From NCBI GenBank assembly GCA_029233985.1, contig JARGOK010000001.1, positions 557,096 to 621,095 of the forward strand: 64,000 nucleotides of DNA, given 5' to 3'. Below are positions 34,699 through 39,727 of the stretch, one piece after another; positions within the stretch are counted from its first letter, which is position 1; each line of letters starts with the position of its first letter. The notes below the pieces were generated by a model that was not told where the DNA came from, searched no databases, and saw nothing but the letters and a program-made list of their open reading frames with translations. Origin of the DNA: Candidatus Altimarinota bacterium. Lineage in GTDB: Bacteria > Patescibacteriota > Gracilibacteria > JAUYGZ01. Position numbers and translations under genes: made by a program.

Positions 34699-34724
34699 AA
34701 CAATGCCTGAGGCATTGTTTTTTT
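34699..34724 (+). terminator. Rho-independent terminator after tRNA-Gly
   Basis: AACAATGCC-TGA-GGCATTGTT is a perfect 9-bp stem, running into an eight-T tract (34717-34724). Confidence 0.9.
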
Positions 34725-34757: not shown

Positions 34758-34789
34758 ACCTTGACTCAAGGTTTCACAAAGTCTACCTT
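34758..34789 (+). promoter_or_regulatory. Promoter of the trp operon with palindromic operator over the -35 box
   Basis: TTGACT (34761-34766) with 17-bp spacing to TACCTT (34784-34789) is a reasonable promoter. ACCTTGA-C-TCAAGGT (34758-34772) is a perfect inverted repeat covering the -35 box. It is a natural binding site for the TrpR-like protein encoded just downstream. Confidence 0.55.
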
Positions 34790-34813
34790 AATAATGTACT
34801 ATTACAATAGAAT

Positions 34814-35080
34814 ATGTCTGATAAAAAATACATCAACGAACTCTCCGCAGCCTTTGGCCTCATCAAGGATAAAAAGCATGCAGAAGAATTTCTTCGAAAT
34901 ATCCTCACCCCAAAAGAACTTGATGAAATAGCCCGCAGACTTCAAATCGTCAAAATGCTCCACAAAGGTGTATCTCAACGAGAAGTTGCTGAAAAACTCC
35001 ATGTCAGCATTGGAACTGTCAGCCGTGGTTCACGAGAACTCCAATATGGACCTCCAGGATTTCTCAAACTCTTATCATGA
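34814..35080 (+). CDS. TrpR/YerC-type regulator
   Basis: The 88-residue helical protein matches the TrpR-like YerC/YecD family: FLRNILTPKELDEIARRLQI then a helix-turn-helix KGVSQREVAEKLHVSIGTVS followed by RGSRELQYG, the family's recognition and end helices. It leads directly into the trp operon, so a role as tryptophan repressor (sensing tryptophan with binding near the promoter palindrome at 34758-34772) is likely. YerC proteins in general are not proven tryptophan sensors. Its stop codon overlaps the start of a leader peptide. Confidence 0.88.
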   Translation: MSDKKYINELSAAFGLIKDKKHAEEFLRNILTPKELDEIARRLQIVKMLHKGVSQREVAEKLHVSIGTVSRGSRELQYGPPGFLKLLS

Positions 35081-35112
35081 AGCCTCTTTTTCAAAAATCA
35101 TACTGGCATTGA
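35077..35112 (+). CDS. Candidate Trp leader peptide, 11 codons
   Basis: ATG at 35077 overlaps the regulator's TGA as ATGA, so its translation would be coupled to that gene. The frame reads MKPLFQKSYWH and stops at 35110-35112; the single Trp codon (35104-35106) is the second-last sense codon. It is followed directly by alternative hairpins and a T-run. Such placement is that of a transcription attenuator leader. Only one Trp codon is present, where two or more are usual. Confidence 0.5.
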   Translation: MKPLFQKSYWH

Positions 35113-35122
35113 CTGAACGAAT

Positions 35123-35198
35123 GAGGTGAGACCTGATATTTTTATGAGTCTATCACCCCAAAGAGGTGAGTTTTTTATAATTACACTCTCCTCTCACC
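35123..35198 (+). promoter_or_regulatory. Candidate trp attenuator with alternative hairpins
   Basis: Four segments alternate: GAGGTGAG (35123-35130), TCACC (35153-35157), GAGGTGAG (35163-35170) and CTCACC (35193-35198). Segments 2 and 3 form a 5-bp stem followed by six T (35171-35176), a terminator. Segments 1 and 2 form a longer stem (GGTG plus AGAC with GTCT plus CACC, two-base bulge), an antiterminator. A ribosome paused at the Trp codon would free segment 1; one that reaches the leader stop would cover it. This fits classical attenuation. Confidence 0.6.
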
Positions 35199-35263: not shown

Positions 35264-36757
35264 ATGATCCAAACCACACACCAAACTAACCACTTCCTAG
35301 AAGGAAGACGTGAGCTCCCCTACTTAGAAGCTCACGAAGTCTTCCATAAGATTTACCAGAGCTGTGAGCACCCCATGCTTATGGAATCAAAACAGGTCTC
35401 TCTTTTTTCTGGGCGCTTTAGTATGATCGGGATTAACCCGGTACTAAAAATTACAGGGAAAGATAACACATATCAGGTTCAGCAACTTTTAGAGAGAGGT
35501 CGTTACTACTTGGAAACCCTCAAGCCTCACCTCGAAAGTCTCTCACCAATAAAAACTAGTGACCAAATGATCGAGGGAACAATAGAACGATCTTTTGGAC
35601 TGCAAGACGAACAATTTCGATCTCAATCGGAAAATATTTCTTCTTCCTTAAGAGCACTCCTGAGTTGTTTTCAAACATCAGACAAAACATTGCAGGGTCT
35701 TTATGGAGCAATGAGCTATGACTTTGTTAGGCTTTTTGAAGATCTTGATGACACCCTTCCAGAAAATGATATTCCCGATTTCCAGTTTTTACTTCATGAT
35801 ACCTTCCTCTTCTTTGATCACATCAAAGAAAAAACTGAGATTGTTGTTTACCGGAGAAATACAAATGATATTTCCAAGGCTTTAGTCGATGTCGAACTCT
35901 TATTCCATGAAGCAAGTATTCCTGTGACATCATATGATATTCGAGACGTAAAATTCTCACTCGATCAAGAGGCCTTTGAAGGCATGGTAAAAACTGCACG
36001 TGAAGATATTATCCAAGGTGAGTATTTTCAGATTGTTGTCTCGAACATCTTACGAGCGAAGTTTTCAGGTGATCCTTTTGCTTTTTACCTGAAATACCGA
36101 GAGGCGAATCCTTCCCCCTATCTCTTTTACTATGACTTTGGAAATGAGCAGCTCGTTGGAGCTTCTCCAGAGATGATGATTCGGTATGAAGAAGGAAAAG
36201 TTCACCTTCGCCCTCTGGCAGGAACGGTAAAGAGAGGTGGAGATCCTTTTGAAGATCATGACCAGATGCTGAAACTACTTAATGACCCCAAAGAACGTGC
36301 CGAACTGGATATGCTAGTAGACTTAGGAAGAAATGACCTTTCGAGAATTTGCAAGCCAGGCATCGAAGTGAGTGACTATCGTTTTATAGAAAAATATTCA
36401 CGAGTGATGCATACTGCAGCACATCTTACCGGTGCACTGAAAGAAGGTTTTACGGGACTGGATGCACTCATAACATGTGCCAATGCAGGGACTCTTACTG
36501 GTGCGCCGAAAGTAGCAGCAATGAGAAAGATTGAGAAACTCGAAAAAGAACGACGAGGATACTATGGTGGAGCCCTGGGCCAACTGAGTTTTTCTGGAGA
36601 TGTTGATACCTGTATTTTAATCCGCTCGGCACAAATCAAAAACCATGAAATACGCTATCAAAGCGGTGCAGGGCTGGTGTATGATTCAGATCCGACCCGG
36701 GAGTATCAGGAAACTTTCAAAAAAGCGCAGGCATTCTTGGATACTTTTTCACAATAA
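35264..36757 (+). CDS. trpE: Anthranilate synthase component I
   Basis: The 497-residue protein has the TrpE N-terminal domain and the chorismate-binding domain with FQIVVSNILRAKFSGDPFAF, RPLAGTVKRG (residues near 310), ELDMLVDLGRNDLSRIC and TGAPKVAAMRKIEKLE. It makes anthranilate from chorismate with the TrpG glutaminase partner. The N-terminal feedback-binding motif (LLES in many TrpE) is read here as LMESKQVS, so tryptophan inhibition is plausible. trpG starts 2 bp after the stop. Confidence 0.96.
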   Translation: MIQTTHQTNHFLEGRRELPYLEAHEVFHKIYQSCEHPMLMESKQVSLFSGRFSMIGINPVLKITGKDNTYQVQQLLERGRYYLETLKPHLESLSPIKTSDQMIEGTIERSFGLQDEQFRSQSENISSSLRALLSCFQTSDKTLQGLYGAMSYDFVRLFEDLDDTLPENDIPDFQFLLHDTFLFFDHIKEKTEIVVYRRNTNDISKALVDVELLFHEASIPVTSYDIRDVKFSLDQEAFEGMVKTAREDIIQGEYFQIVVSNILRAKFSGDPFAFYLKYREANPSPYLFYYDFGNEQLVGASPEMMIRYEEGKVHLRPLAGTVKRGGDPFEDHDQMLKLLNDPKERAELDMLVDLGRNDLSRICKPGIEVSDYRFIEKYSRVMHTAAHLTGALKEGFTGLDALITCANAGTLTGAPKVAAMRKIEKLEKERRGYYGGALGQLSFSGDVDTCILIRSAQIKNHEIRYQSGAGLVYDSDPTREYQETFKKAQAFLDTFSQ

Positions 36758-36759
36758 CT

Positions 36760-37347
36760 ATGGATACTTTTCACAATATTTTGGTCATCGACAATTATGA
36801 TTCTTTCACCTTCAATTTGGTGGATTACATTGAGCAACTCGGATGTGATGTGACCGTTTATAGAAACGATATAAATGTAGAGACTGTCGAAGAAGTGGAT
36901 CCTGATCTGATTGTATTTTCACCAGGACCTTCTATTCCAAAAAATGCTGGGAATATGATGGAGATGATTGAAAAATATCACCAACAATATCCGATGTTTG
37001 GAGTCTGCCTTGGCCATGAAGCCTTCATTGAATTTTTTGGTGGAAGCCTCAAGCTGACTGATCCAGTTCATGGAAAATCATCCCCTATTCACCACAACCA
37101 AGAAACCATTTTCTCAGGTCTTGACCAGGATTTTCTAGGAGGACGCTATCATTCTCTTGTTGCAGATGAAGTGCCAGACTGTTTTGAGATTACGGCGAAT
37201 GTTGATGATCTGGTAATGGGAATACGGCATAAACAACTGCCTATCGAAGGAGTTCAGTTTCATCCAGAGTCTGTTCTCTCGATGAAGGGTAAAAATGGAA
37301 TGCTCCTTATGAAAAATGTAATCCATAAAAAATTTACGAATGTATAA
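36760..37347 (+). CDS. trpG: Anthranilate synthase glutamine amidotransferase component
   Basis: The 195-residue protein is a class-I amidotransferase: NYDSFTFNLVDYIEQLG at the start, SPGPSIPKNAG, GVCLGHEAFIEFFGG with the active Cys near residue 85, and QFHPESVLS with the His/Glu pair. It supplies ammonia to TrpE. It overlaps trpD by 8 bp, and no fusion to TrpD is present. Confidence 0.96.
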   Translation: MDTFHNILVIDNYDSFTFNLVDYIEQLGCDVTVYRNDINVETVEEVDPDLIVFSPGPSIPKNAGNMMEMIEKYHQQYPMFGVCLGHEAFIEFFGGSLKLTDPVHGKSSPIHHNQETIFSGLDQDFLGGRYHSLVADEVPDCFEITANVDDLVMGIRHKQLPIEGVQFHPESVLSMKGKNGMLLMKNVIHKKFTNV

Positions 37348-39727
37348 AGAACTCATTTCACAATTGACCAATAAAAAATCATTAAAGAATGAAAATATTC
37401 ATGAGTTCCTCAGGAAGAGTAGTGATGGGAAACTTTCTCAAGTAGAGCAAGCTGCTGTCTTAATTGCTCTTCAGACCAAAGGTGTCTCTTCTTCTGAGCT
37501 CAAATCATTTGTTTCATTTCTTCAAAAACACATGCAGGGAGAAATTGCTTTCCCTGGAGCTATAGATATTTGTGGTACGGGTGGATCTGGGCTTGCACGG
37601 ATTAATACTTCCACTATTTCTGCTTTTATCTTGTCTGCACTTGGAGTGTCAGTCGCAAAGCATGGAAACAAAGCTGCCAGTGGTCGCTTTGGAAGCTTTG
37701 ATCTCTTGGAAAAACTGGGAGTAAAGCTTGATCAAGATGCTGAGACGATTGAACGTATTGCCGAACAAACTCAACTCGCATTTCTCTACGCCAGATCATT
37801 TCACCCCGTCATGAAGCACTTTGCTCCAGTTCGAAAAGCTCTGGGAACCCCTACAGTCTTTAATATCATTGGCCCTCTTTTAAATCCTGCTGGAACGAAA
37901 AAACAAATTATTGGAACTACATTTGAAGACCAGATGGAACTCATTGCTGAGACCTGCAAGAAGCTTGGAAGAAGCCAGGTGATGGTTGTTTGTGGAGAAG
38001 ATGGACTAGATGAAGTAACTCTCACAGGGAAAACAAAAGTTGTTGAGCTCGTGAATGGAACGATTAAGAAGTACATCCTTAGTCCGAAAAGCTTTGGTAT
38101 CTCCAGCTGTGAATTTAAAGAGATCTCTGGAGGGAATGCCAAGATGAATACCAAGATTGCGAGGGATATTATTGCTGGAACCTGTAAAACTCGACATCTT
38201 GACCTTGTTTTGATGAATACTGCCCTCGCATTGAAACTCAGCGGAACTCAAAAAAACCTTAAAAAAGGATATAACATAGCAAAAGAGGCCGTGCTTTCTG
38301 GAGCGGTAAATTCACACTTTCAGAATTTCCTCCATGCTGATCATGCACCGAGTATTCTCTTGAGGATCAAGGCAACGAAAAAAAAAGAAGTGGAACGAAG
38401 AAAAAAGAAACTTTCTCTGAAGAAAATTCAAAAATCTCTAAAACCTTCACGGAGAGATTTTCGAAATGCATTGGTCCGCCATGGACTCTCTCTTATCGCT
38501 GAAGTGAAACAGGCTTCTCCAAGTGCTGGCATGATTAAGAAAGAAGGATTCTCTCCGAAGAAAATCGCAAAGATGTATGAAGCGAATGGTGCCCGTGCTA
38601 TCTCAGTCTTGACGGACAAGACTTTCTTTGGGGGAGAACTGAAGTACTTGGCAGATGTAAAAGAAGCAACATCACTGACCCCCCTGCTCTGCAAAGATTT
38701 CATTATCGATGAATACCAGATATTTGAAGCTCGTCGCTATGGAGCTGATGCAATTCTTTTAATAGCAGCTCTCTTGAATACACAAGAAATGGAGCACTTT
38801 CTCCAAATAGCAAAATCGCTCCAGATGGATGTACTCTGTGAAGTGCACAATGAAGAAGAACTCTCTCAAGTACTACAAACCTCAGCTGAAATCATCGGCG
38901 TAAACAATCGAAACCTTCATGACTTTACGATCGACCTCATGACGACTCACAAGCTTTCAAAAAAAATTCCTCAGGGAAAGATCATCGTGAGTGAAAGTGG
39001 GATCTCCTCCAAAGCTCATGTAAAAAAATTGCCTCCAAAAGTCGATGCTATTCTCGTCGGGACGAGCTTGATGAAAAGCAAGAATATTGGTGAGAAAATC
39101 AAACAACTTGTAGGCAAAAATCAACCACTCATAAAAATTTGTGGTGTTCAATCGATCAGAGAAGCTCAGCTTTGCCAAAAACTTGATGTGGATTTCATCG
39201 GGCTCAATATGGTTTCTACGAGTGACAGACAAGTCTCCTACCAAATGGCTCAGAATATATGTGATCAGATCAAAAAGAATCCAAAGTCTCCTACACGTGT
39301 GGTTGGGGTTTTCCAAGACCAGACCGTAGAAGAGATCAATAAAGCATCTATAATGATACATTTTGATTTTGTCCAGCTTTCTGGGAAAGAGAACACTTCA
39401 TTTATACGGAAGATCAATAAACCCTTAATTAAAGGGGTTTCTATTCACTCTGAAAAAGACATAAAACGTGCACAAAAATTGATCAAAGTGTCAGATTACA
39501 TCCTTTTTGATGGAAAAACTCCTGGATCTGGTCAAGCCTTCAATCATGGACTGGCTCGAGGCTTTAAACACCCCTTTCTACTTGCTGGAGGCATTACCCC
39601 AAGCAATGTCAAAGCTTTCATCCAGCTCGTTCAACCTCTGGGAGTAGATATCGCCAGTGGCGTGGAGTCAAAAGGGAAAAGAGACCTCAAGAAAATTGAA
39701 AAACTCTGCCAGCAAGTCCGTTCTTAA
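37340..39727 (+). CDS. Trifunctional TrpD-TrpC-TrpF fusion
   Basis: One 795-residue chain carries three enzymes. Residues about 1-335 are TrpD, anthranilate phosphoribosyltransferase (DICGTGGSGLARINTSTISA, KHGNKAASGRFGSFD). Residues about 345-590 are TrpC, indole-3-glycerol-phosphate synthase (LIAEVKQASPSAGMI, LTDKTFFGGEL, CKDFIIDEYQ, VGVNNRNLHDF-type, SESGISSKAHV). Residues about 595-795 are TrpF, phosphoribosylanthranilate isomerase (IKICGVQSIREA with active Cys, FIGLNMV, FDGKTPGSGQAF, LLAGGITPSNV). A basic linker joins D and C. The three successive steps are thus in one chain; trpC-trpF fusions are common but trpD-C-F is unusual. It overlaps trpG. Confidence 0.95.
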   Translation: MYKELISQLTNKKSLKNENIHEFLRKSSDGKLSQVEQAAVLIALQTKGVSSSELKSFVSFLQKHMQGEIAFPGAIDICGTGGSGLARINTSTISAFILSALGVSVAKHGNKAASGRFGSFDLLEKLGVKLDQDAETIERIAEQTQLAFLYARSFHPVMKHFAPVRKALGTPTVFNIIGPLLNPAGTKKQIIGTTFEDQMELIAETCKKLGRSQVMVVCGEDGLDEVTLTGKTKVVELVNGTIKKYILSPKSFGISSCEFKEISGGNAKMNTKIARDIIAGTCKTRHLDLVLMNTALALKLSGTQKNLKKGYNIAKEAVLSGAVNSHFQNFLHADHAPSILLRIKATKKKEVERRKKKLSLKKIQKSLKPSRRDFRNALVRHGLSLIAEVKQASPSAGMIKKEGFSPKKIAKMYEANGARAISVLTDKTFFGGELKYLADVKEATSLTPLLCKDFIIDEYQIFEARRYGADAILLIAALLNTQEMEHFLQIAKSLQMDVLCEVHNEEELSQVLQTSAEIIGVNNRNLHDFTIDLMTTHKLSKKIPQGKIIVSESGISSKAHVKKLPPKVDAILVGTSLMKSKNIGEKIKQLVGKNQPLIKICGVQSIREAQLCQKLDVDFIGLNMVSTSDRQVSYQMAQNICDQIKKNPKSPTRVVGVFQDQTVEEINKASIMIHFDFVQLSGKENTSFIRKINKPLIKGVSIHSEKDIKRAQKLIKVSDYILFDGKTPGSGQAFNHGLARGFKHPFLLAGGITPSNVKAFIQLVQPLGVDIASGVESKGKRDLKKIEKLCQQVRS

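Follow-up and report, generated by a model that had tools for sequence, protein, structure and literature searches.

A putative ribosome-mediated trp attenuator linked to trpR in a class of Patescibacteria

The region between a trpR-like repressor gene and trpE on contig JARGOK010000001.1 of a Candidatus Altimarinota bacterium is best explained as a ribosome-mediated transcription attenuator of the trp operon, in a form common to many members of this class of Patescibacteria (probability roughly 0.8). The locus lies in a stretch of 64,000 nt, which is called the window here. The anatomy of the device is conserved among relatives, its arms fold in mutually exclusive ways, and arm and terminator co-vary. 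An earlier note on this DNA had proposed a classical Trp attenuator; the kind of device, its nesting between an autoregulated trpR-like gene and the operon, its coupled start and its conservation across families are borne out, whereas the fourth pairing segment of that proposal is not, and the covering of the first segment by a ribosome at the leader stop is doubtful in the window.

Under the proposed mechanism, transcription would begin from a promoter 5′ of trpR that overlaps a TrpR operator-like site, and ribosomes that finish trpR would re-start at an overlapping ATGA and translate a short, Trp-containing leader. When charged tRNA-Trp is scarce, the ribosome would stall at the Trp codons and leave arm 1, near the leader stop, free to pair with arm 2; the terminator would thereby be blocked and RNA polymerase would enter trpE. 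When Trp is plentiful, a ribosome at the stop would cover arm 1, arms 2 and 3 would terminate transcription, and only trpR would be transcribed. Where leader and TrpR are fused, as in some relatives, the sensor would be the repressor's own tail. We infer that translation, stalling and termination take this course in vivo.

Patescibacteria (CPR) commonly have a reputation for being minimal and having little regulation. The present locus points to two layers of control over Trp synthesis, repression and attenuation, in a Patescibacteria lineage, and attenuation implies coupled transcription and translation in these bacteria. No report of trp or other leader-peptide attenuation in Patescibacteria was found in the open-access library searched, and the attenuator of this clade is probably a genuine control system that seems not to have been described before.

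The trpR-trp locus of the window

The control region and the genes on either side of the attenuator are the following:
34773..34802, + strand: putative sigma-70-like promoter of trpR, TTCACA-18-TACTAT, from a match to the consensus only
34796..34813, no strand given: TrpR operator-like site GTACTATTACAATAGAAT, aligned by eye with the GTACTATTACAATAGAAC sites of relatives
34814..35080, + strand: trpR-like repressor gene, 88 amino acids, PF01371 Trp_repressor family
35264..36757, + strand: trpE, the first structural gene controlled, PF00425 and PF04715
36760..41725, + strand: rest of the operon, trpG, a trpD-C-F fusion, trpB and trpA, from open reading frames, Pfam, NCBIfam and homology

The product of the trpR-like gene belongs to the PF01371 family (E 2.7e-22; 79 bits against a cut-off of 27) and matches solved TrpR and TrpR-like structures in the PDB. 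It scores 55.1 bits against the NCBIfam TrpR equivalog TIGR01321, below the cut-off of 67.25, and 42.2 against the NCBIfam YerC/YecD model, equal to the cut-off of 42.2. A tRNA and a terminator (34699-34719) lie 5′ of the gene, which therefore probably heads its own transcription unit. The promoter listed above is the sole sigma-70-like site returned by the promoter scan, where 1.8 were expected. The site GTACTATTACAATAGAAT overlaps its −10 element, abuts the trpR ATG and resembles the E. coli trp operator; the operator scan in the window picked an overlapping frame of the same site. Across the loci, a GTACTAGTTAACTAGTAC-like operator at the regulated promoter is well supported: at 16 of 18 loci the scan of the region before trpR finds a site that scores above shuffles, and in relatives these sites are of the GTACTATTACAATAGAAC type. 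A second, more distant TrpR-like gene (32% identical) is found elsewhere in the same genome (G000:C3:60380-60616).

Downstream of the attenuator, the anthranilate synthase TrpE of the window matches Chorismate_bind with an E of 6.9e-77. trpG and trpDCF were identified by Pfam and NCBIfam, and trpB and trpA by sequence and by homology among the loci; trpD, trpC and trpF form a single fused frame of 795 amino acids (37340-39727).

Leaders, arms and terminators in the window and its relatives

Between trpR and trpE, the window holds these elements:
35077..35112, + strand: leader peptide MKPLFQKSYWH followed by a stop, read directly, with homologous WW/WWW leaders at the same place in relatives
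35123..35130, + strand: arm 1, GAGGTGAG, the 5′ half of the antiterminator, from folding, with TGAGGTGA common to the sister genus G001
35153..35159, + strand: arm 2, TCACCCC, pairing with arm 1 (antiterminator) or arm 3 (terminator), from folding
35163..35170, + strand: arm 3, GAGGTGAG, the 3′ half of the terminator, from sequence and folding
35153..35176, + strand: intrinsic terminator, stem TCACC/GGTGA (35153-35169), then G and T6 (35171-35176), from the terminator scan

The leader ATG (35077-35079) overlaps the trpR stop TGA (35078-35080) as ATGA, and the leader has only one Trp codon, TGG at 35104-35106, which is codon 10 of 11. On direct reading, the earlier description of this 11-codon frame, with its overlap with the regulator stop, penultimate Trp, complementary segments and T6, is correct base for base. 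The hairpin at 35153-35169 is among four sites found by the terminator scan in the region, against 0.5 expected. The same description had added a fourth segment to the switch, CTCACC at 35193-35198; this lies 3′ of the T run and is not conserved, and in G001 its place is occupied by trpE, and it was rejected as a part of the device. The device is three-armed: arm 2 pairs either with arm 1 as antiterminator or with arm 3 as terminator, and the three correspond to arms 2-3-4 of E. coli. The T run of the terminator extends into TATAAT (35176-35181), a possible internal −10 element at which the promoter scan made no call.

Taken alone, one Trp codon among 11 has no statistical weight, and a 5-bp stem adds little to it; the significance of the window leader comes from the Trp-rich frames at homologous loci. 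The clade surveyed comprised 24 trpE loci of Candidatus Peregrinibacteria/Gracilibacteria (Patescibacteria). Of the 24, 12 have a short Trp-rich frame (WW, WWW or three or more Trp codons) in the 200 nt before trpE, the single-Trp leader of the window not being counted; dinucleotide shuffling repeated 200 times gives 0.65 on average and 3 at most. Outside the clade, 51 trpE loci (mostly from Bacteroidota and archaea) gave three Trp-rich leaders where 1.1 were expected and the shuffle maximum was 5, which is no clear excess.

Relatives show the device far more plainly than the window does. In G001, the nearest relative that has trpR, the gap between trpR and trpE contains MISLLSTFHDSWWTHSF and a stop, read from the ATGA overlap, and then TGAGGTGATGAG, CTCTCACC and GAGGTGTTTTTTTT, and trpE begins almost directly past the T run. 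In G002, of the same family, MTVTDFKLTWWNNSLRR and a stop, with a terminator, precede trpE; no trpR was found in this MAG, which is 88% complete. The TrpE tree joins both sister genera to the window (100/99). Elsewhere in the clade, leaders carry WWW (G260, G257, G256, G270 and L085, a MAG labelled Uhrbacteria), WWNW (G279), W-W-W (G302) or WW (G291, G284 and G052). A terminator hairpin with a T run follows 18–40 nt after the leader stop at all leader-bearing loci (the hairpin of L085, CCTCGG/CCGAGG, was set by hand), and at most loci the sequence about the leader stop complements the 5′ arm of this hairpin, so that the antiterminator arm sits at the stop.

Homologous operons that lack both leader and hairpins, which the earlier note had counted against its reading, do occur in some lineages, while WW leaders and terminators persist in both sister genera, G001 and G002. 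The leader is absent where trpE overlaps or abuts trpR, as in about a third of the clade loci (including G262, G274, G027 and G277). At two loci (G002/L033 and G052/L081), a WW leader precedes trpE with no adjacent trpR; in G052 a trpR-like gene lies behind trpBA on the same contig, and the trpE leader stands directly behind a promoter with an operator, as in E. coli. In family f6 (L005, L008, L014, L054 and L204), a palindrome of the type GTACCGTTGTAACGGTAC lies downstream of trpR and before the next gene; L204 has a WW leader and a terminator after it, and L014 a one-Trp leader before a trpG-trpE fusion. Two contigs labelled as Deltaproteobacteria MAGs (L102 and L120) encode TrpE proteins that are 51–57% identical to that of the window and close to those of Peregrinibacteria, a possible case of mis-binning or transfer.

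Folding, co-variation and the state of the window copy

At 16 loci, including the window, folding was run on the RNA not covered by a ribosome that has stalled at the first Trp codon (stall) or reached the leader stop (stop); that codon was placed in the A site and the leading edge 12 nt beyond its first base. The terminator probability rises from below 0.2 on stalling to above 0.9 at the stop in 11 of the 16 loci, and partially, from 0.00 to 0.46, in G252; G256, G279 and G052 show no switch in equilibrium folding and keep the terminator in both states. Against shuffled spacers, the combined Fisher p is 1.6e-13, with relatedness among the loci ignored, and most loci are insensitive to the footprint between 9 and 17 nt. 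Six of seven further loci from other families also switch in folding; these were chosen for their Trp-rich frames or tails, except G053, which was chosen after its pairing had been noticed. A position-dependent antiterminator is thus found in silico in most loci of both sets, and in the window only if at least 15 nt are covered. With no ribosome at all, the terminator forms at some loci (G002, G260, G291 and L085) and not at others, so a protecting 1:2 hairpin is optional.

The earlier note had proposed looking for covariation in related genomes. Arm swapping was used in place of a covariance model because the arms co-vary by pairing and not by shared sequence. Each locus's own arm suits its own terminator better than arms from other loci do: when spacers are exchanged for those of other loci, the mean stall-state terminator probability rises from 0.21 to 0.80 (Wilcoxon p 1.5e-4). 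Co-variation of arm and terminator follows from this; a switch depends on it, whereas an ordinary terminator has no need of it.

This result bears on a rival account, in which an ordinary terminator lies behind trpR, trpE has its own promoter at TATAAT and the small frame is there by chance. The window frame taken alone, with its one Trp codon, would fit that account, as would a T run that merges into a −10-like hexamer with trpE 88 nt further on; however, the promoter scan finds nothing at the hexamer, trpE of G001 starts straight after the T run, the Trp-rich frames of relatives at the same place are far above chance, and co-variation with an upstream arm is needless for a plain terminator. 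We consider it improbable. Control of the terminator by a T-box, a TRAP-type system or another Trp-binding RNA switch, and not by the ribosome, would use an identical terminator/antiterminator logic, but in-frame Trp codons, which in the fusions have moved into the trpR frame itself, are explained only by translation. Furthermore, at E up to 1 the leaders of the window and of 14 homologous loci match no Rfam family, T-box included; the hits obtained are unrelated. An RNA switch of this kind is very improbable. The Rfam Trp_leader family (RF00513) likewise gave no match at gathering in the window, nor at E up to 1 in the same 15 loci.

Ribosome-mediated attenuation being the preferred reading for the clade, the window copy is one of the weakest members of the conserved group. 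Its terminator stem of 5 bp, at −4.5 kcal/mol, is one of the two weakest among the 16 loci, and its leader, with one Trp codon, is shorter than those of both sister genera. The stop comes only 6 nt after the start of the Trp codon (18–36 nt at other loci) and arm 1 starts 10 nt past the stop. The switch is mostly clean in the relatives, but the covering of the first segment by a ribosome at the stop is doubtful in the window: with a 12-nt edge arm 1 stays uncovered and the terminator probability is 0.17 on stalling and 0.22 at the stop, whereas it reaches 0.96 only with an edge of at least 15 nt, that is, with the leading edge reaching 35125.

These features would suit a decayed attenuator, a leaky constitutive terminator that is unresponsive to Trp and sets a fixed ratio of trpR to trpE, with control left to TrpR at the promoter. 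With readthrough of the TGA at 35110-35112, the next stop in frame would be the TGA at 35122, adjacent to GGTGAG in the manner of G002, and the early stop in the window may have truncated an ancestral leader. Against decay, all arms are retained, arm 1 still blocks the terminator (probability 0.17 with its own arm and 0.73 with the arms of other loci), the distance from TGG to TGAGGTGA is 18 nt, near the 21 nt of G001, and covering 15 nt would restore the switch. We hold decay to be a serious possibility, a little short of even odds, and the chance that the window copy still responds to Trp is about one half. Since sister genera with WW leaders group with the window in the TrpE tree, its leader is best read as derived, and the copy has probably been weakened from the WW form of its ancestors.

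Recoding of TGA was also considered behind the short leader of the window and was rejected, given that prfB has a single internal TGA and that TGA ends 10 of 42 long open reading frames in the window. A single internal TGA in prfB is what the usual RF2 frameshift shows; the gene lies at L207 (G000:C3:546800-547813) and is consistent with classical RF2 programmed frameshifting in this lineage.

Known systems and coupling to the repressor gene

The system shares with E. coli trpL a short leader with tandem Trp codons, a terminator before trpE, an antiterminator that folding predicts to be set by ribosome position, and use together with repression of the same promoter by TrpR. It differs in having no match to RF00513, in requiring the equivalents of arms 2-3-4 only, in placing the antitermination arm at the leader stop, and in having trpR precede the leader in the same transcript, with the leader starting inside the trpR stop or fused to the gene; trpR would thus be transcribed even when the operon is attenuated. 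The nearest known precedent is the chlamydial trpR-IGR-trp arrangement, where trpR is also the first gene and a putative trpL lies between trpR and the structural genes. As portrayed in the portions of the sources available (PMC7755916, PMC3937554), C. trachomatis has a putative TrpL of 59 codons that is atypical and unvalidated, lacks tandem Trp codons and is predicted to be a poor attenuator, C. felis has a putative leader frame with tandem Trp for which an attenuator structure is not reported, chlamydial leaders run to about 40–59 codons, and neither coupling by stop overlap nor fusion to TrpR is described. Outside Proteobacteria, comparative evidence exists for RNA regulatory elements of amino acid genes (leader-peptide attenuators) in Actinobacteria, a different phylum, and the abstract of that source does not note coupling to a repressor gene (PMC1262725). 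In YtgCR of C. trachomatis, Trp codons in the regulator's own frame similarly link its output to Trp supply; there, WWW lies in a permease domain and acts in trans through the repressor level (PMC7755916), whereas here the TrpR tail would also be the cis leader of a terminator/antiterminator switch.

Coupling to trpR takes two forms. Eight of the 11 leaders that lie between trpR and trpE overlap the trpR stop by ATGA (the window, G001, G257, G291, G279, G270, G284 and L085/JACRJV); of the remaining three, that of G260 overlaps trpR by 8 nt and those of G302 and G256 are separated from it by 8–14 nt. A Shine-Dalgarno motif at normal spacing is missing from all 11, which would be consistent with ribosomes re-initiating as they come off trpR. 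In at least six genomes (G252, G304, G268, G321, G266 and G048), the Trp codons lie inside the C-terminal tail of TrpR and are followed by a terminator. G252, G304 and G268 have no separate leader; the trpR frame runs into a tail ending in LNQVIAWWQPSTIWQMWS, LKKLWRLNPSGRLRE or KNKNWRNTEKSRQSLA before its stop, and arm 1 lies within the tail. Among the other tail cases, G321 and G048 switch in folding and G266 does not. The three fusions linked to trpE stand on different branches of the TrpE tree, beside leaders of the separate type (inner support is modest), and fusion of the leader to TrpR has therefore probably happened more than once, judging by this tree.

We lean towards the view that the repressor gene is itself the sensing part of the attenuator, with ribosomes loading through the overlapping stop and with the leader having become the TrpR tail independently in several lineages. 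If so, one passage of a ribosome would both make the repressor and gauge charged tRNA-Trp, and stalling would lower repressor output and open the operon together. From separate leaders, through leaders coupled to the repressor stop, to leaders fused into the repressor, the loci form a graded series in which the merging of a trans regulator with a cis sensor becomes open to test. A TrpR-like protein at L176 (G295) ends in NSNWWRDYSSSTHPSF before its stop, with no clear terminator or trp gene after it. At L169 (G266), a TrpR with a WW tail and a terminator precedes a radical SAM-like gene, by look no trp enzyme, an arrangement that hints at a wider Trp regulon.
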